DNA of 64,000 bases from Planococcus antarcticus DSM 14505. GTDB lineage: Bacteria; Bacillota; Bacilli; Bacillales_A; Planococcaceae. The DNA lies in contig NZ_CP016534.2 in NCBI RefSeq assembly GCF_001687565.2, positions 2,608,501 to 2,672,500 on the forward strand. Reading direction: 5' to 3'. Made by a program: the position numbers and the translations under genes. Shown here piece by piece: positions 449-46,751 of this stretch; position 1 is the first letter of the stretch, and every line of letters begins with the position of its first letter. The notes beneath the pieces were generated by a model. It was not told where the DNA came from, did no database searches, and saw only the letters and a list, made by a program, of their open reading frames with translations.

Positions 449-1912
449 TTATACCGTTTTTTCATTTGCCTTTTGTTTTGCTGCGTCTGCTTTACGCTGC
501 TTGCCTTTGCGCCAAACAACCCACAAAAACAGCATGAACACGACATACATGATAGCAAGAACCGCAATGTAAGCGGAATTTAGTTTAGTTTCTTCGGTCA
601 CATGGAAAACTTCTGCAATTTCACGGTCCTGCGTCAAACGGTATTCTCCATTGTCTTCTTGGCGGATAATATCGCTTTCAAACAAACCGCGCATTTCCTG
701 TCCTTCTCCAATAACCTCAGCAGGTAGGTTAATATTCTTAGTTACTGAAGAATTGTTGATGGCGATAATCCACGTTTCTTCATCATTGGAGCGTTTGTAG
801 ACCAGCCAGCCATCTTCGTCATGTAGAATTTCCAATTCGCCTGTCCGTAAAGCCTCAGATGAATTGCGCAATGATGTCAAGTCCGTGATATGATCAACTA
901 GTTCTTTGTCCACAGCTAAATCCAAAATTTGATGTGATTCGGGCAGCTCAGTGCCGTTCATTGCTGATTCGGAGCCATACTGGACGACTGGGATTCCGGG
1001 CATTGTCAATAACTGAGTCAACAGCAGTGTCCAGCGTGTTGGTGGAAAACCATTTTCTTCGACAATATCGGCTGTAAACCGAGATCCTATTAAAGAATCC
1101 ACTTGAATGAGGTTGTCTTCGCTTTCTTCCATGATAGAAGAAATTCCAGTCAAATCCTGGTCGAAATTCTTATAAGCCGCACGCAGGGTTTCTTCTACTC
1201 CTGGCAAGACCACTGCATCAACCCCAGGCATCTCTGCCATTTCTCTGTCGCTTAAGATGTAGCTGTCCCGGACGTCTTTAATGGCGTCAGAAAAATCACT
1301 TACAAATGACTCATCCAACTGGTCTGCATTCTGCAGACGGAAGCCATCAATTTCATAAGTCTCACTAAATTCCGTAAAAGTGGAAATCAATGCTTCCTGT
1401 GCTTCTAGATTCGAAGTATCCAAAGCCAGGCTGCCATCTTCATTTTCCGTAAACCAATCTGGATTTTCAGCTACCCAAACATGTTCCTCACTTACTTGCT
1501 GCGTTGGGACATCCACAATCACTTTCATATCCTGATCATGGATTTCAGCTACCAATTCTTCAAATTCTTCTTTTGTTCCAAAATGGCGCTCAAATTTGGT
1601 GTAGTCCAATACTCTTTTCCCATCATATGTAGCTGTCGAAAACACAGGTCCTATCGAAAGAGCGGTAAAGCCCATTTCTTTCACAAATAATAGTTCACTG
1701 GCCATGCCATCAAAGTCGCCTCCATTGAAACTTGCAGGATCCAATGCATTTACTTCGTAATCATTATCGATCTTTTTATTGAAATAACGGTCAACCAGTA
1801 CATCATAGATGAGCTCATCTTTTAGTTCGCGCTCGTCTGCAGCAAAAGCCGGATTAACGAGTGTTAACACTAGTACGCTTGATATGATGCTTAAAATCCA
1901 TTTTGCCTTCAA
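449..1912 (-). CDS. Membrane-anchored alpha-amylase (GH13)-like protein, probably catalytically inactive
   Basis: 487 residues if translation starts at the TTG at 1912, which has GGAGG seven bases upstream; the longer frame to 1975 lacks such a site. A signal peptide (KAKWILSIISSVLVLTLV, AFA cleavage site near residue 24) is followed by a GH13 TIM barrel, a C-terminal beta domain, one membrane helix near residues 445-467 and a basic tail. The fold is clear from GDFDGMASELLFVKEMGFTA and TMPGIPVVQYGSE. The catalytic regions are degenerate: region I reads DVPTQQ instead of DxxxNH, region II reads GFRLQNAD with Gln (about residue 194) where the nucleophile Asp is expected, region III has no GE, and region IV lacks NHD. 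It may bind glycans or act structurally; that is inference. Confidence 0.75.
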   Translation of the reverse strand: MKAKWILSIISSVLVLTLVNPAFAADERELKDELIYDVLVDRYFNKKIDNDYEVNALDPASFNGGDFDGMASELLFVKEMGFTALSIGPVFSTATYDGKRVLDYTKFERHFGTKEEFEELVAEIHDQDMKVIVDVPTQQVSEEHVWVAENPDWFTENEDGSLALDTSNLEAQEALISTFTEFSETYEIDGFRLQNADQLDESFVSDFSDAIKDVRDSYILSDREMAEMPGVDAVVLPGVEETLRAAYKNFDQDLTGISSIMEESEDNLIQVDSLIGSRFTADIVEENGFPPTRWTLLLTQLLTMPGIPVVQYGSESAMNGTELPESHQILDLAVDKELVDHITDLTSLRNSSEALRTGELEILHDEDGWLVYKRSNDEETWIIAINNSSVTKNINLPAEVIGEGQEMRGLFESDIIRQEDNGEYRLTQDREIAEVFHVTEETKLNSAYIAVLAIMYVVFMLFLWVVWRKGKQRKADAAKQKANEKTV

Positions 1913-2051
1913 TCTGAAATCCTCCTTCAATGAGGTTGCTATTGCGTGCCACACGGTTAATTTTATCAAATTCAAGCTACCGCTGCCATGTTAAGTTAGG
2001 GTTTCAGCAATGACTTGCCTAAGTTTCGTCTAAACTGTGAAAATCTCCATA

Positions 2052-2083
2052 GAAAAAGGCAAGTGCATTGAGCACCTGCCTGC
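2052..2083 (-). terminator. Terminator of yisL
   Basis: On the minus strand AGGCAGGTGC and GCACTTGCCT form a stem (one G-U pair) with a TCAAT loop followed by TTTTTCT, directly after the yisL stop. Confidence 0.8.
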
Positions 2084-2088
2084 TTTTC

Positions 2089-2460
2089 TTAAAAGAAATT
2101 CAAACCGATCGGCAACATGAAACCGATGAACATTGTGGCAAATAGGAATAAGACAAACAATGCCCAAAACATCGTAACCGGTTTTTGTTTTTTCGAACGA
2201 ACCAAAATCATTTCCATCATTCCGATCGCCAAAACACCCAATAAGAACTTAATGCCGTACAGCATCGGATCTGATGAAGACCATTCGATGAATAAAGTAA
2301 GTCCTGTGATGATGATCAAAATGTAGAACAACCTCAAGACCATGTGCAAAATCTTGCGGCCTTTGCTATCGCGCTGCATAAATGCCGCAATTAGGAACAA
2401 GACGACGGCAATGACCCATGTTGTGATGTGTAGATGTGTAGTCTGTGTAAAAATATCCAA
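2089..2460 (-). CDS. yisL: UPF0344 (DUF1516) membrane protein YisL
   Basis: 123 residues with four predicted membrane helices. The sequence follows the B. subtilis YisL pattern: HLHITTWVIAVVLF, ILHMVLRLFYILIIITGL, GIKFLLGVLAIGMMEM and a short LPIGLNFF end. Function is unknown in the family. It lies next to a yisK-like gene, as in B. subtilis, which supports the call. AGGTGAGC lies upstream of the start. Confidence 0.85.
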   Translation of the reverse strand: MDIFTQTTHLHITTWVIAVVLFLIAAFMQRDSKGRKILHMVLRLFYILIIITGLTLFIEWSSSDPMLYGIKFLLGVLAIGMMEMILVRSKKQKPVTMFWALFVLFLFATMFIGFMLPIGLNFF

Positions 2461-2528
2461 AAGCTCACCTCTTCTAATAAAGTCCTTTCCAGTTTATCAC
2501 AAATCGGACGATGGGAAGAGCTCATATC

Positions 2529-3428
2529 TTATGACAAATGTGTGACGAGGGTGCCAATGGATTCAATTGATACTTTAACAGTGTCTCCCGCTTTAAGGAA
2601 TTTTGGTGGATTAAAGCCTTTTCCAACTCCAGCCGGTGTGCCAGTAAGCAGAACATCCCCTGGTTCCAGTTCAACATACTGTGAAACTTCCGCTATGAGG
2701 TCATCCACACGGCGAATCATATTTTCTGTATTGCCATTTTGGCGTACTTCGTCATTGACTTTTGTTACGATCGACAAATTCTGTGATTGAGGAATTTCAT
2801 CTTTGGTCACAATATAAGGCCCTAGTGGACATGAGCCCGGCAAGCTTTTCCCAAGGAAATACTGCTGGTGCTTTTCCTGTAGGTCTCGGGCAGTCAAATC
2901 ATTCGCGATGCTGTAGCCAAAAACATAATCATAAGCCATTTGCTTTGGTATTTTGTGACCCGCTTTTCCAATGATGATAGCGAGTTCCCCTTCGTAATCA
3001 TAGGCATCGGTCACGTCACTATGAACAGAAACAGTTTCGCCGTCTGCTGAAATACAAGTAGGCGACTTTGTGAAAACCACTAGGTCTACAGGAGCTTCCC
3101 CACCCATTTCTTTGGCGTGATCCGCATAGTTCTTTCCAATACCAATAATGTTTTTAGGTGTTCTGGAAATTGGAGCTAACCATTCAATTTCTGAAAATGA
3201 GTGTTTGAATTCTTCAGAGCGTTCAGATTGGACAGCAGCTTCCGTCAATTTGCGAATTTGTTCGACAAACTCTAATCCTTGTGGAATTCCATCAATCAAC
3301 TGTGATGGGAATGCCGGCAGGACCTCTAATTGCTGTTGGATGGCAAGCAAATCCCAGACAGCTTCCTCCTTTTTAACCTTTGGTCCGAATCCTTCTTTTT
3401 CTTCATAGCGAAATGATAACAGCTTCAT
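2529..3428 (-). CDS. Fumarylacetoacetate hydrolase family protein (YisK-like)
   Basis: 299 residues, usual length for the family. An N-terminal domain of about 70 residues precedes the FAH fold. IIGIGKNYADHAKEMG, the metal-binding YEGELAIIIG glutamates and NDLTARDLQ aspartate, and the closing GDVLLTGTPAGVG are all present, so the divalent-metal site looks intact. Family members act on acylpyruvates or oxaloacetate; B. subtilis YisK is reported as an oxaloacetate decarboxylase. Its place beside yisL agrees with the YisK assignment, but FAH paralogues are hard to separate by sequence. The intended substrate is therefore uncertain. Confidence 0.85.
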   Translation of the reverse strand: MKLLSFRYEEKEGFGPKVKKEEAVWDLLAIQQQLEVLPAFPSQLIDGIPQGLEFVEQIRKLTEAAVQSERSEEFKHSFSEIEWLAPISRTPKNIIGIGKNYADHAKEMGGEAPVDLVVFTKSPTCISADGETVSVHSDVTDAYDYEGELAIIIGKAGHKIPKQMAYDYVFGYSIANDLTARDLQEKHQQYFLGKSLPGSCPLGPYIVTKDEIPQSQNLSIVTKVNDEVRQNGNTENMIRRVDDLIAEVSQYVELEPGDVLLTGTPAGVGKGFNPPKFLKAGDTVKVSIESIGTLVTHLS

Positions 3429-41480: not shown

Positions 41481-42352
41481 TTAAAATAGTCTAGGTGTCG
41501 ATGGTGGTGTATTGTCTTTATTTTTTTGACTTATTTCATCATGATGATCATGGGCTTTTCTGGTTTTGTCCAAGTCATCTGTCCGCTTGTCATCCTGTAT
41601 GCGCTCTTCTTTTGAATCTCGGCCGAAAGGTGCAGGCCCTGAATTGGAATCTACACCAGGTGAAGGCTCATCTTGCCGACGATTGACTCCGTCTTCCCGC
41701 AATAAGTTGTCTTCGCCTTCCTTTGTTTGAAGAGCAGGCTCATGGTCCATTTCTTTTTCGCGGACAGAGCCTTCATCTTTTGGCCCCCCCCAGTAGGATG
41801 AATTTCATCCCCATTCAGACGGGAATCCTGAAGACGATCGCTTTTCCCAGCTCTTGCGTGTTGATCTTCTCTGGAAACTTCACGTGCATAGATTTCATCG
41901 GGATCATGATGCGTATCTGTATGGCGGTCAACAGATCCTGATCCAGGTGTACCGGCAGTTTTCTCTTCCAAATCTATTGCAGTTTTTGAATCATCCAAAG
42001 ATGAAAAATGTTCGTCTCCTGATGAAGAGCTTTCCCCATTTGTATAAAGAAGAACAGCACCTTTTTCAATTTCACGCTCATAGTCATCTGCTCTGTCCTG
42101 ATTCAAATTAAAACGATCCAACTCTTTTCTAACAATGTCTTTGCCACCGAGAAAAGACTTGAAACGATTGGAAATCGAGTTCGCTTGATCAGCATGAATA
42201 CCTTTACTGCCAGCAGACTCCACTAGTTTTTTATCATTAGCTAAGACGTAGATATCCTTTTCTTGGAAACCTTTTGATTTTAAAGCTTGTATGGCGGTAT
42301 CCATTTCTGATTGACTGAATACAATTTCAAATTCACGATTTCCGGATCTCAT
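41481..42352 (-). pseudogene. YflT-domain general stress protein gene, frameshifted at a G8 tract
   Basis: Starts at the ATG at 42352 (AGGAGG nine bases upstream). The N-terminal YflT/GSP17M domain (REFEIVFSQSEMDTAIQALK, FQEKDIYVLANDKK, DDYEREIEKGAVLLYTNG) is followed by an acidic low-complexity tail. At a run of eight G on the coding strand (41784-41791) the frame is lost and would end at 41651 with unrelated residues. The other frame carries the natural tail (KDEGSVREKEMDHEPALQ) to 41481. Six or nine G would restore a protein of about 290 residues. Either a slippage-prone locus, a recent mutation or a sequencing error. Confidence 0.7.
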
Positions 42353-42387
42353 TATAAAAAACCTCCTGTGTACTAGATAATCGTTGT

Positions 42388-42412
42388 TTTCCCTCATATT
42401 TAAGGCTTAAAC
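42388..42412 (-). promoter_or_regulatory. SigB-like promoter of the first YflT gene
   Basis: Minus strand GTTTAA, 13 bases, GGGAAA, about 35 bases before the start codon. Confidence 0.6.
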
Positions 42413-42439: not shown

Positions 42440-43033
42440 TCACTTATATTTTTTGTTATTTTGACTGTGCTTTTCAGCTTCACTTGAGCCGCCTCTAACT
42501 TTTTCAATTTCAGGATCTTGCTGTGTAGTAAATGAGTTATGTCTTTCATCTTGAACCAAAGTAGGATCTTGTTGGAATGTTTCTCCATGTGCAAAGCGGT
42601 CCTCTTGTTCGTCAAAATTATTGTCGACAGAATTGATGAATTGATGTCTTTGTGAATCGTTCGGATTTTCCTGATTTGCATCCAATTCGTTGATCGAGAT
42701 TGAATCGAGAACAGTTTCTTCGTCTTCATCTTTATATACAATAATTCCACCTTTTTCCAAATCGGCCGTATAACGTTCTGTTTCTGTTTCTGAAAGGCCT
42801 AGTGACTTAACCCCTTCGCGGACACCGCTGTCTCCAGAAATAAATCCTTTAAATTTATCGGTAAACGTACCAACTTCCTCTTTATCAAATGCATAATTTT
42901 CAAAGTGCTCTGTATCTTTTGCTATGATATGAAGATTTTGCTCCTTGTAACCAGCGCTTTTCAAATCTTCTATTTTATTTTTCAAGTCATTTTCCGAGAA
43001 TACTACCGCTAGTATTGTTTTATCGAAACTCAT
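42440..43033 (-). CDS. YflT-domain general stress protein
   Basis: 197 residues from the ATG at 43033 (GGAGG upstream). The N-terminal domain of about 105 residues (TILAVVFSENDLKNKIEDLK, AGYKEQNLHIIAKDTEHF, LGLSETETERYTADLEKGGI) is the GSP17M/YflT domain and is paralogous to the neighbouring gene at 41481-42352. The rest is acidic and probably disordered. Function unknown; SigB-dependent in relatives. A SigB-like promoter lies 43 bases upstream. Confidence 0.82.
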   Translation of the reverse strand: MSFDKTILAVVFSENDLKNKIEDLKSAGYKEQNLHIIAKDTEHFENYAFDKEEVGTFTDKFKGFISGDSGVREGVKSLGLSETETERYTADLEKGGIIVYKDEDEETVLDSISINELDANQENPNDSQRHQFINSVDNNFDEQEDRFAHGETFQQDPTLVQDERHNSFTTQQDPEIEKVRGGSSEAEKHSQNNKKYK

Positions 43034-43075
43034 AAGAAAAACCTCCATAGATTTAATAAATTGTCATACTTCTGT

Positions 43076-43100
43076 TTACCCACTCGAAGTAATCCATAAC
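43076..43100 (-). promoter_or_regulatory. SigB-like promoter of the second YflT gene
   Basis: Minus strand GTTATG, 13 bases, GGGTAA. The -10 is good, the -35 is weaker. Confidence 0.45.
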
Positions 43101-43555
43101 CTGCTTTATGAGTTAAGTAGAAAAATCGCCTGAATTTTTGGCCTGAGAAATTCTAGAAAAAATAGCATTTAGCTTTACTTTCTTGATTGCGAATACTGCT
43201 TTAAACAATAGTTAGAATGAGGGGTTAAGCACTTTCTAATTAAAATAGTTACATGTACCTACCAAAACCCTCATTATGGAGATTTCGTTAATCAACATTT
43301 ACCGTTGTAGGCTTATTTTACCTTTTTTAGTTTTTTACAGATTTCTAAAATAAAAAAGCAGTTTATTTCGAAAATTGGTGATATCATGAATAAAAGATAT
43401 TATTACAAAGTAAAATTTGGGATGTGGAGGCGGCAATTATCGTACTTAGCGATCTATTTTCTTCTTATTTTTCAGAGGATCCGAAAAAGCCGGAAAACAA
43501 CTCTCCTACATGGATGACGGAAATACTGCCCTTGCAAAAGGAAAGGAGAGCAGTA
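43101..43555 (+). promoter_or_regulatory. Regulatory region of the HTH-TPR regulator gene
   Basis: About 450 bases without a convincing gene. A SigA-type promoter, TTGGTG (43375-43380), 17 bases, TATTAT (43398-43403), faces the regulator and would give a leader of about 145 bases. Upstream, AATGAGGG (43216-43223) and CCCTCATT (43268-43275) are an inverted pair 44 bases apart and could be operator half-sites. Nothing else is recognisable. Confidence 0.5.
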
Positions 43556-44851
43556 ATGGAAACGGGAATGCGTTTAAAATATCATCGTTCGAAACAGAAA
43601 ATCAGTTTGGAAGAAGTCGCCTCTGGCATACTATCTCCCAGAGAACTTAAAAAAATGGAAAATGGCAGTAAAGATCCCGCTTTAAAAGACTTAGAAGCTT
43701 TATGCAAGAAACTAACTATACCTTTAGCACCTAAAGATAATCCAATAGGAAAGGTGCTTGTAAAAAACTTTAAAAATTCACTACTCCACCCGCAGAACAA
43801 AGCTAAAATCATGGAACAGTATACCGATATCCAAGGGCACCCCTTATTGCATGCAGACGAAGATGTGGAACTGGAGTATAGTATTCAGCAGATTAGGTAT
43901 TTTATTATCATCGGAGATTTGGATAGTGCCGAAGAGAAGATTAAAGAAATGGAACGTTTCAGAGAGTTTATGAATCAAGAGCAGTTCTATTTATTTCATA
44001 AATACAACGGAAACTACAATTACATTCTCAACGATTTTGAAAAAGCTCTCAAAACTTACCTTGTCGCTGAAAAAATAGCGCCTAATACAATTTCTGCTTC
44101 AGAACTTGGCGATCTTTATTACTCAATTGGAATTTCCAGCACCAAATGCAGAGAAACAGAAATGGCTTTTAAGTATTCCGAAATGGCGTTGAAGATTTAT
44201 CAGCAAGAGTTCATACCAAAGCGTATAGTAGAATGTCATTTAAATATAGCAATCACTCACCAACATTTCGGTAATTTCAGGATGTCGATGGAGCATTACA
44301 AAAATGCTTTGACAATAGGCAATAAACTAGAGATTGATATTCTGCGTTTTACGACAGAATTTAATCTAGGGTATTCTTACTTTATATACCAAAATTACAA
44401 TCTTTCAGTTGTTCACATTGAAAATTCATTAAAATATATTCACCCAGAATATACAGCAGACCTTTTATCAAGTTATTGCATTTTAATTAAATGTCAATAT
44501 GAGTTAAACAACTTTGACGCTGCAAAAGTATGGATTCGTAAAGGCTTAGAAATAGTGGAAAATAAGAAATTAAATATCCATTCTCCGACTAACCACATAT
44601 TTAAAGAAGCTTACATTGAATTTATTTGCTTGGTACACCTCTTGGACGAAAACTATGAAGATTTCGAAAACTATGTTCTAAGAAAATTAATTCCTAGTCT
44701 TGAGGCTACAGGCAATTACTTCGAAAGCGGCTATTATTTCGGACATTTAGGGCAAATATTTTATGAGCAAGAACGTTATAAAGAGTCAGCTGAAATCATG
44801 AACAAAGCAAGAGAATCATATAAGAATATTAATATTTTATTTAGGGAGTGA
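43556..44851 (+). CDS. RRNPP-type regulator: XRE helix-turn-helix plus TPR domain
   Basis: 431 residues from the ATG at 43556 (AAAGGAGAG upstream); an in-frame GTG at 43424 has no good site. Residues 5-60 are an XRE-type HTH (RLKYHRSKQKISLEEVASGI, ELKKMENGSKDPALKDLEAL). The rest is helical TPR: DFEKALKTYLVAEKIAP, GDLYYSIGISSTKCRETEMA, HLNIAITHQHFGNFRMSMEH, FNLGYSYFIYQNYNLSVVHI and GHLGQIFYEQERYKESAEIM. This layout and length match NprR/PlcR/AimR-like receptors that bind imported signalling peptides. The secreted repeat-peptide gene starts five bases after the stop, so the pair is probably one operon. Confidence 0.85.
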   Translation: METGMRLKYHRSKQKISLEEVASGILSPRELKKMENGSKDPALKDLEALCKKLTIPLAPKDNPIGKVLVKNFKNSLLHPQNKAKIMEQYTDIQGHPLLHADEDVELEYSIQQIRYFIIIGDLDSAEEKIKEMERFREFMNQEQFYLFHKYNGNYNYILNDFEKALKTYLVAEKIAPNTISASELGDLYYSIGISSTKCRETEMAFKYSEMALKIYQQEFIPKRIVECHLNIAITHQHFGNFRMSMEHYKNALTIGNKLEIDILRFTTEFNLGYSYFIYQNYNLSVVHIENSLKYIHPEYTADLLSSYCILIKCQYELNNFDAAKVWIRKGLEIVENKKLNIHSPTNHIFKEAYIEFICLVHLLDENYEDFENYVLRKLIPSLEATGNYFESGYYFGHLGQIFYEQERYKESAEIMNKARESYKNINILFRE

Positions 44852-44856
44852 AAGTG

Positions 44857-45288
44857 ATGAAAAAAGGAATAACAATTTTATTTTTCTCTATCCTTGCAAT
44901 AAGCACTTTATCATTTGACAATAATACAAATTCAACAGATGAATTTGCTGTCCAGGCCCGGGTTCCTGAGCCTTGGTCTACCGGCACCGAAGTCGCTGTC
45001 CAGGCTCGTGTTCCTGAGCCTTGGTCTACCGGCACCGAAGTCGCTGTCCAAGCTCGTGTTCCTGAGCCTTGGTCTACCGGCACCGAAGTCGCTGTCCAGG
45101 CTCGTGTTCCTGAGCCTTGGTCTACCGGTACCGAAGTCGCCGTCCAGGCTCGTGTTCCTGAGCCTTGGTCTACCGGCACCGAAGTCGCTGTCCAGGCTCG
45201 TGTTCCTGAGCCTTGGTCTACCGGTACCGAAGTCGCCGTCCAGGCTCGTGTTCCTGAGCCTTGGTCTGTTAAAAACCACCAAGCTTAA
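44857..45288 (+). CDS. Secreted multi-repeat peptide precursor, candidate quorum-sensing propeptide
   Basis: 143 residues from the ATG at 44857, eight bases after AGGGAG that overlaps the regulator stop. Residues 1-20 (MKKGITILFFSILAISTLSF) form a signal peptide; a polar spacer leads to residue 30. Then six full copies of a 16-residue unit, AVQARVPEPWSTGTEV, and a seventh ending AVQARVPEPWSVKNHQA. AVQA before R resembles a signal-peptidase site, so processing could release RVPEPW-type peptides. Its place behind an RRNPP receptor gene is the standard place for a cognate precursor. Precursors of this class normally hold one or few copies. Function is inferred. Confidence 0.8.
   Translation: MKKGITILFFSILAISTLSFDNNTNSTDEFAVQARVPEPWSTGTEVAVQARVPEPWSTGTEVAVQARVPEPWSTGTEVAVQARVPEPWSTGTEVAVQARVPEPWSTGTEVAVQARVPEPWSTGTEVAVQARVPEPWSVKNHQA
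44947..45267 (+). repeat. Seven in-frame 48-bp coding repeats
   Basis: Units begin at 44947, 44995, 45043, 45091, 45139, 45187 and 45235. Between copies only synonymous third-position changes are seen (for example gcc/gct, cgg/cgt, cag/caa, ggc/ggt). Because 48 is a multiple of three, all other frames are open too, producing spurious frames on both strands. Confidence 0.95.
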
Positions 45289-45304
45289 TAGTTTTATCCC
45301 ACAG

Positions 45305-45341
45305 AAGGTCGTCGCTTTTTTATATAGCGGCGGCCTTTTAT
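45305..45341 (+). terminator. Terminator of the regulator-precursor operon
   Basis: AAGGTCGTCGCT pairs with AGCGGCGGCCTT (two G-U pairs) around a nine-base loop, followed by TTTATCTTT. Confidence 0.75.
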
Positions 45342-45385
45342 CTTTCTCAAAGAGACTCAATCCCCTCACGAACGGAGAGACTCAT

Positions 45386-45990
45386 ATGAGTAATGGGAAT
45401 ACCTTTTCCTTACCTACTGACTATGAAGTTATGCGAAAGGTTAATTTAGCCAAAGACAAGCACTTTATTCTATTGATTCAACTCTGCTTTATTTTCACCA
45501 CTGGTACCCTAATCAGCTTCGCTTTGTGGGTTGACTTCCCCCTGTCAAACGGAATGAATCCATTTTCCTTATTTTTGATTACCATCTTTTGGTTTTAATT
45601 TACATGGCTCTTCATGAACTGACCCATGCCTTCTTTATCAATATTTTTTCGGCAGGCGTCCTTCCTTTTGGATTCGGTTTCCTTTTCTTTCAGTCGGTAG
45701 TGAAGCTTACTTTGATCGAAGAAGTTTTATCATTATCGCATTAGCACCTGTTCTGGTATGGGGCATATCGCTGTCTTTTTACTATTAATTGTTCCCACAC
45801 AGATTTCCCTCAGCTTTTATATACTTCTTACCCTAAACTTTGCTGGGTCAGCCGGTGATTACGTATAGGAGTCTTATATTGCCTTCACCTCTCCAGCAGG
45901 CATATTGTTTCAAGACAACGGAAAGGAGACGACGCTGTATATGCCAGTAGACAGCAAAAAAAGAGCCAAGAAAAAGTCAATCCCCGGATC
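45386..45990 (+). pseudogene. DUF3267 putative metalloprotease gene, broken by several frameshifts
   Basis: The start at 45386 (GGAGAG upstream) gives MSNGNTFSLPTDYEVMRKVN and two membrane segments, ending at a stop at 45598. The next frame continues at once with VLIYMALHELTHAFF, the HExxH zinc motif of DUF3267 proteins. A further shift near 45700 gives GSEAYFDRRSFIIIALAPVL, and later frames give NFAGSAGDYV and SPAGILFQDNGKETTLYMP. Together these rebuild a normal DUF3267 protein split over at least three frames. The 3' end is approximate. Relatives are unstudied membrane zinc proteases. Confidence 0.8.
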
Positions 45991-46016
45991 TTTTTTGTTT
46001 GGTTCTATGTTATTCA

Positions 46017-46751
46017 TTATTGATTTTGTTTTTTGTCAACTAAGCATTCATCTACAAAACGCTTGAAAATATTCATAGAAGCGTCGTCACCTTGAAGAGC
46101 AAATTCTTCTGGATGCCATTGGATGCCCATTGCGAATTGATGGTGCTTACTTTCCAGTGCCTCCACCAGTCCATCAGAAGCTTTCGCAGCCACAGTCAAT
46201 TGGTCTGATACATCTTTAACTCCTTGATGGTGGAAAGAGTTTACATTGAATTTTTTCTCTTTCATAATATCATACAACAAACTATTTTCTTCCAAAATTA
46301 CCGAGTGGGTGCGATGAGTCCGCATTGCCATTTGCTTGTGTTGGTGCAGTTCGCCTTCAAATTGAGCCTCTAAGTCTTGATAATTGGTACCGCCCAATGA
46401 AATATTGAACATTTGGAGTCCGCGGCACATTCCGATAAACGGTTTGTCCAGCTCAAGGAATTTTAAGATCAATTCTTTTTCATACTCATCACTGCCTGGA
46501 TATACAGCTCCAAGACGTAAATGAGGTTCTTCTCCGTACAGTGTCGGGTTAATGTCCCCTCCACCCGTGACAATCAGTCCATCCAAACGTTCACATAGCA
46601 ATGGGATATCTTCTTTGTCTACAATTGGTACAATCAGCGGCAAGCCGCCTGCCTTCAGAATTGCTCTGCCGTATACTGGATCTAATGAATAGGTTTGATC
46701 TTCTTCTACACGTGCTGTTATGCCGATTACTGGTTTGTTTTTAACTGTCAT
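46017..46751 (-). CDS. Class I glutamine amidotransferase-like hydrolase (peptidase C26, PuuD-like)
   Basis: 244 residues. KPVIGITARVEEDQTYSLDP, GLIVTGGGDINPTLYGEEP, the nucleophile elbow PFIGMCRGLQMFNISLGG, and GIQWHPEEFALQGDD with the catalytic His-Glu are intact. Members hydrolyse gamma-glutamyl amides such as gamma-glutamyl-GABA. No putrescine genes are adjacent, so the substrate is open. A partial inverted repeat with T run at about 45956-45995 may end the transcript. Confidence 0.88.
   Translation of the reverse strand: MTVKNKPVIGITARVEEDQTYSLDPVYGRAILKAGGLPLIVPIVDKEDIPLLCERLDGLIVTGGGDINPTLYGEEPHLRLGAVYPGSDEYEKELILKFLELDKPFIGMCRGLQMFNISLGGTNYQDLEAQFEGELHQHKQMAMRTHRTHSVILEENSLLYDIMKEKKFNVNSFHHQGVKDVSDQLTVAAKASDGLVEALESKHHQFAMGIQWHPEEFALQGDDASMNIFKRFVDECLVDKKQNQ

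Follow-up and report, generated by a model that had tools for sequence, protein, structure and literature searches.

Planococcus antarcticus DSM 14505, a member of a mainly environmental genus, carries a gene pair that we interpret as a quorum-sensing system of the RRNPP type, with a probability of about 0.87. The pair lies in a 64,000-nt stretch of contig NZ_CP016534.2 (positions 2,608,501 to 2,672,500, forward strand), hereafter called the window, in a 3.8-Mb genome with close relatives in Planococcus and Planomicrobium. It consists of a gene for a regulator with a helix-turn-helix (HTH) and tetratricopeptide repeats (TPR), hereafter the receptor, and a gene for a small predicted secreted protein, hereafter the precursor. 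Orthologous pairs occur throughout the genus, and this genus-wide system is real and probably functional. The first-pass annotation, made from the sequence of the window, had described an HTH-TPR regulator followed after five bases by a seven-unit small protein, and this layout was confirmed by direct reading, Tandem Repeats Finder (TRF) and Pfam. Chance does not account for the arrangement, since it is found again wherever a genus ortholog could be read.

By direct reading, the receptor open reading frame (ORF) extends from an ATG at 43556 to a stop codon at 44849-44851 (431 aa), and the precursor ORF from an ATG at 44857 to a stop codon at 45286-45288 (143 aa). The intergenic gap is 5 nt (44852-44856), and the ribosome-binding site of the precursor sits at the end of the receptor gene; the directly adjacent gene for a predicted secreted precursor that marks RRNPP systems is therefore present. 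By inspection, the precursors of the window and of the genus orthologs begin with basic residues followed by a hydrophobic stretch. Receptor and precursor apparently form one transcription unit, because a hairpin with a U-rich tail lies behind the precursor; none of 200 shuffled sequences was equally stable, and a simple terminator scan made no call at this site.

The seven RVPEPWS cores of the precursor (21 nt each) start at 44959, 45007, 45055, 45103, 45151, 45199 and 45247. They recur every 16 residues, with 9 aa between cores, and TRF reported a period of 48, 6.7 copies, 96% matches and a score of 593. A Pfam match of the precursor to Cornifin was rejected as homology; in our judgement it is a low-complexity match that reflects the Pro-rich repeats. 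No NCBIfam model and no PHROGs family matched the precursor.

A full-length receptor ortholog was found in all 46 genus genomes (56-100% identity), six named loci (L032-L037) being excluded because they were taken as genomes already counted. Readable DNA followed 44 of the orthologs, and at least two repeat units were parsed in 43. The parser required at least two units, and three loci were excluded from the copy counts: L019, which enters the repeat and then runs into Ns, and L045 and L050, in which the contig ends 140-149 nt after the receptor. The parsed arrays held 2-14 units (median 7, n = 43), with 14 in L007 (contig of 3.47 Mb) and 13 in L042 (3.28 Mb); the count of 2 for L028 may be low, as its array is at the edge of a contig. 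Among the 43, the precursor ATG of 42 is -4 to 13 nt from the receptor stop. Five genus genomes carry a second receptor (30-31% identity) that keeps the array arrangement, with IHPNPW or LWPQPW cores, and eight more precursors in the protein collection share the same plan.

The genus cores follow the consensus [RK]xPxPW[SAF]. They differ between species (RVPEPW, RIPEPW, RLPDPW, KIPQPW and KHPHPW, among others) and are mostly identical inside one gene. Among 48 parsed genes, including 5 paralogs, only L059 and L060, both paralogs, had more than one distinct 6-residue core; an apparent variant in L052 was an X caused by Ns, and the seventh residue was mixed (S, A, F or N) within seven orthologs. 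Entropy was lowest in the core (P3 0.16, R1 0.45, E4 0.79, S7 1.12, V2 1.33) and reached 1.57-2.85 in the flanks. The zero entropy of P5 and W6 arose by construction, because the first parser pattern demanded P and W; in a pattern-free check of 43 precursors, W followed 278 of 278 PxP triplets, and the remaining five units were the TxPW units of L051. Units shared 91.7% of their bases within genes and 57.6% between genes, and at the sequence level this within-gene likeness is the pattern of concerted evolution.

Pfam identified HTH_3 in the receptor above the cut-off, together with TPR families. NprR was the best relative in the PDB both by sequence (5dbk, phmmer E 9e-9) and by Foldseek. The AlphaFold model (predicted local distance difference test score 91.6) has a predicted fold that matches NprR, Rap and AimR in Foldseek and VIA-align. 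In NCBIfam no model came near its cut-off for the receptor, and PHROGs returned phrog_5208, whose function is unknown, and a weak match to a repressor family. Where the receptor begins is uncertain: no stop codon interrupts its frame upstream as far as a GTG at 43424, which would give a 475-aa version, and orthologs in the protein collection fall into classes of 429-431 aa and 473-475 aa. Either length is within the 250-500 aa, with TPRs, expected of RRNPP receptors (PMC10075063). Like the NprR subfamily, the receptor combines an HTH with a Rap-like TPR superhelix. Subfamilies are, however, assigned at 30% identity over 80% of the length (PMC10075063), and the receptor shares only 18-20% with NprR chains in the Foldseek and VIA alignments, falling short of at least 30% over at least 80% of reference NprR; it is therefore classed as NprR-like and not as NprR.

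To relate the receptor to the core, positions were transferred from RapF by a phmmer alignment read by hand. N270, T266, T196, E226, H237 and S305 correspond to Asn227, Arg223, Tyr152, Gln183, Asp194 and Gln263 of RapF, all of which contact PhrF (PMC3601957). Loci L095 and L097, from outside the genus, were included in the 50-row analyses and excluded from the 43-row analyses. N270 and E226 are invariant in the 43 orthologs, and N270, at the position of the conserved peptide-anchoring Asn of RRNPP receptors, is Asn in all 50 rows of the wider alignment. Among 318 variable columns, T266 ranked first for both core position 4 and core position 1 (43 orthologs); the pairs of residue 266 and core position 4 were T-E (35), N-E (2), S-D (2), D-Q (3) and D-H (1). 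T196 ranked second for core position 2, and the tree shows 9 changes of residue 196 and likewise 9 of core position 2. Of the 5 pairs in independent contrasts, 4.1 had residue 196 moving in the same direction and none in the opposite one, the best of 265 columns (next 2.5). This tracking of the core by positions 196 and 266 is suggestive and supports the pairing, but it is not proof. A Mantel test (r 0.635, 0 of 2000 permutations) was not relied on, as deep splits and paralogs dominate its result.

Several observations weigh against a quorum-sensing function. The first-pass annotation had called for a repeat that co-varies with the receptor, and of the four variable RapF-contact positions only T266 and T196 bore this out; for the four core positions, H237 and S305 ranked 119-248 among 318 columns and do not follow the core. 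I262 ties with T266, the tree has just 3 changes of core position 4, and in two sister rows residue 266 became N without a core change. The contrast test has 5 pairs and a median p of 0.125, and with so few pairs a value below 0.05 is out of reach. The RapF mapping was made after the first column list had been seen, and many columns were scanned. On the precursor side, no invariant protease site was seen by inspection of the repeat units, the first units of L039, L049, L057 and L058 are degenerate and outside the parser pattern, and the L026 ortholog lacks an intact precursor ATG. Regulators without an adjacent repeat gene, named in the first-pass annotation as the refuting case, did not occur among the readable genus orthologs (43 parsed, one reaching Ns); outside the genus, 10 of 13 receptor relatives have, in our reading, a single short precursor, and 3 of 13 have repeats.

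Other functions of the pair were weighed on the same data. It is very improbable that the repeat protein is a secreted structural or antimicrobial Pro-rich protein merely controlled by the adjacent regulator. Its 143 aa and its repetition do exceed those of normal RRNPP precursors, and its Pro-rich repeats score in Cornifin, yet core changes go along with two receptor positions that align with peptide contacts of RapF, the pairing is kept by paralogs and also by an HTH-less receptor that could not use an HTH on DNA, and the predicted receptor fold is that of peptide receptors. We also consider it unlikely that one copy, for example the C-terminal one, is the real signal and that the others are neutral slippage products of the 48-nt repeat. 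RRNPP signals are usually C-terminal in the precursor (PMC10075063), the range of copy numbers fits slippage, the units of one gene are homogenised, and degenerate first units exist. A single unit, however, was found in none of the 43 parsed orthologs (the parser could not return fewer than two, and Ns or contig ends explain the three unparsed loci), and internal copies of other precursors, Phr3T and Phr105, are released and active (PMC11343458).

A little less unlikely, but still disfavoured, is a receptor that acts mainly as a Rap-like protein-binding regulator, or in both ways like NprR, with the HTH secondary. NprR is bifunctional (PMC5349214), with a peptide-driven dimer-to-tetramer switch and Spo0F phosphatase activity (PMC4970707); the HTH-less relative retains its peptide array, and the VIA Z score equals that of Rap proteins. 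On the other side stand the HTH_3 match above cut-off and the stronger constraint on the N-terminal 60 alignment columns (ratio of nonsynonymous to synonymous polymorphism, pN/pS, 0.19 vs 0.28 for the whole receptor).

In the quorum-sensing system that we favour, the precursor would be exported by Sec, and extracellular proteases would cut between the cores to release a peptide that spans RVPEPWS and is about 6-8 residues long. Re-import of the peptide would be by an Opp-type oligopeptide permease, and the 10 SBP_bac_5 matches in the genome offer transporter candidates. The peptide would then bind the concave TPR surface around N270, E226, T266 and T196 and switch the HTH transcription factor, changing transcription. 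Several copies per chain would raise the signal made per translation, and concerted evolution would keep the copies alike, so that a code change could pass to the whole array as the pocket of the receptor adapts. More tentatively, we propose that in Planococcus the array is the obligate, core-genome form of the signal and not a sporadic amplification; that copy number (2-14) is an evolvable gain; that the copies change code together as the T196/T266 pocket adapts; that stepwise protease release acts as a timer; that a stem hiding the Shine-Dalgarno sequence sets receptor output; and that the array serves an HTH-less receptor in one lineage. We consider this combination less likely than not. 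The genus offers a naturally occurring set of receptor-signal pairs in which the code can be read, copy number varies and two residues are candidates for a specificity switch; with synthetic peptides, such pairs make questions of signal dose, precursor processing and pherotype switching testable for RRNPP systems.

Yeast alpha-factor, which is unrelated, also carries several pheromone copies per secreted precursor, with Kex2 sites and a surface receptor. The likeness is one of analogy only, and no dedicated Kex2-type sites were seen in the Planococcus array. Among RRNPP systems, repeated signals are known. Repeated Phr signals have been described (PMC5199041), up to six signal copies occur in AimR, NprR, PlcR and Rap systems, with repeats in 17 of 17 atypically large NprR precursors (PMC9765709), and up to eight pheromone copies per precursor have been reported (PMC11343458). 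The novelty that the first-pass annotation implied for a precursor with more than one or a few copies is thus not supported: multi-copy RRNPP precursors, those of NprR included, are already published, although the Planococcus arrays reach more copies than the numbers found in print. Like NprR-NprX of the Bacillus cereus group, the pair consists of an HTH and TPR receptor gene followed by a secreted precursor, which in NprR systems can be multi-copy (PMC9765709); it differs in its 18-20% identity, its [RK]xPxPW core as opposed to SSKPDIVG of NprX, its 2-14 copies across the 43 orthologs and its 143-aa precursor. The duplicated pheromones of Rap3T and Rap105 are likewise repeated in one precursor and read by a TPR peptide receptor (PMC11343458), but Rap has no HTH, the copies number two, and the Phr105 spacer is 4 aa as against 9 aa here. 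Our literature search found no paper on this Planococcus pair or its core strings, and "planococc" does not occur in the main text of PMC9765709, PMC10075063, PMC11343458 or PMC12700828, whose supplementary tables may still list the clade. Nor did it find a description of peptide quorum sensing for Planococcus; the one match appears to concern a B. subtilis strain. The 10-100 aa limit on precursors in RRNPP_detector (PMC10075063), a limit of the tool and not a biochemical definition, is exceeded by the 143-aa precursor; detectors so restricted would pass over such arrays because they are too long.

Beyond the genus, the family-level search matched the receptor at E <= 1e-20 in 59 of 261 genomes (the 46 of the genus and 13 others), and the order-level search covered the same 261 genomes. 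The three relatives with repeats differ in form. L095 has five REIIPEPWS units. L096 (G061:C3:19450-23728) has two VTVPPPF units next to a receptor split into two pieces and seems to be a decaying system. L097 (G116, 1600-3209) has six MYPPPW(S) units behind a 403-aa TPR receptor without a detectable HTH and may be read from its sequence as a Rap-like form inside this clade. Pfam found no HTH in L097 or in the protein-collection relatives P0095, P0096 and P0098. As Pfam likewise fails to detect the HTH of paralog L056, although the N-terminus of that protein aligns from residue 4, the HTH loss in L097 rests more firmly on the absence of alignment to residues 1-58. Plasmid records held 8 receptor relatives, all at 24-29% identity; of four inspected, L137, L138 and L140 have single short peptides and L139 has an array. 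L139 (2501-4176, Mesobacillus foraminis plasmid NZ_CP033045.1) joins an NprR-like receptor (26% identity) to a 137-aa precursor with six EE[LF]PPPLAP units, near nonribosomal peptide synthetase genes. It shares the multi-unit plan but has another core and spacer and lies on a Bacillaceae plasmid, and its array looks to have arisen independently of that of Planococcus. No receptor relative was found in phage records or viral contigs, and so neither collection points to a phage origin.

Upstream of the receptor, the first-pass annotation had placed a promoter at 43375. A sigma-70 scan did not call it, but a strongly conserved block (43358-43388) lies there, with most columns at least 90% identical across the 46 orthologs. 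A 26-nt pattern from the block matched the genome once at <=3 mismatches, at its own site, so that the operator search yielded no regulon targets. No recognisable copy of the block precedes the paralogs, L095 or L097, where the best match on either strand covered 15-19 of 31 bases. The in-frame extension between the block and the receptor ATG is stop-free in 46 of 46 orthologs, and its start position is V, M or L in 43 and Thr in 3. Its synonymous polymorphism (pS) is 0.375 vs 0.737 in the receptor, and its pN/pS 0.63 vs 0.28; these unusually conserved synonymous sites suggest that the nucleic acid itself is constrained, perhaps alongside weak coding. Within the extension, CTCTCCT could pair with the Shine-Dalgarno sequence AGGAGAG, and 99.5% of cells were paired in 27 distinct rows (28 rows given, of 46 orthologs). 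No two-sided covariation was seen in these rows, and the structure is therefore not proven; translational attenuation of the receptor is possible on the sequence evidence. The features are listed in Table 1.

Table 1. Features of the receptor-precursor locus (window coordinates)
Feature	Coordinates	Strand	Evidence
Conserved promoter-region block GCAGTTTATTTCGAAAATTGGTGATATCATG with TGATATCA palindrome; candidate operator/promoter	43358..43388	+	
In-frame upstream extension of receptor ORF from GTG 43424; may be a translated leader or a longer N-terminus	43424..43555	+	
Stem 5' arm CTCTCCT; would sequester receptor Shine-Dalgarno sequence	43501..43507	+	
Shine-Dalgarno AGGAGAG of ATG 43556; stem 3' arm	43544..43550	+	
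Receptor, NprR/Rap-like: HTH (residues 7-57) and TPR superhelix (~63-423)	43556..44851	+	Pfam, phmmer, AlphaFold, Foldseek, VIA-align
Predicted secreted poly-pheromone precursor, 143 aa	44857..45288	+	Sequence; homologous precursors in readable genus orthologs and protein collection
Sec-type N-terminal signal, MKKG and hydrophobic stretch	44857..44922	+	Inspection of sequence
Tandem array, 48-nt period, seven units	44947..45267	+	TRF; core conservation
Terminator-like hairpin, U-rich tail, 3' of precursor	45303..45339	+	Minimum free energy -21.3 kcal/mol, z -5.88

The neighbourhood was compared in 20 stretches of 20 kb, 17 of which contain the orthologous locus (L117-L132 and L135). Both upstream genes, 41651-42397 and 42440-43048 (the latter with a YflT stress-protein domain in Pfam), are kept in all 17, so the pair occupies a fixed chromosomal place. 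Rfam found no family within 42900-46100 at E 0.1. Downstream, ORF pieces at 45387-45860 with an HELTH motif appear by inspection to be one gene broken here by stops or frame changes. Elsewhere in the same genome, at about 958.4-959.8 kb (G000:C1; L065:959-2328), a second HTH-TPR regulator with 21% identity to the receptor overlaps by 4 nt a 31-aa ORF ending in SGPNVLPPI, and a subtilisin-like ORF was seen upstream by inspection. This looks like a separate, single-copy RRNPP pair, and many of the 46 genus genomes have weak matches similar to its regulator.
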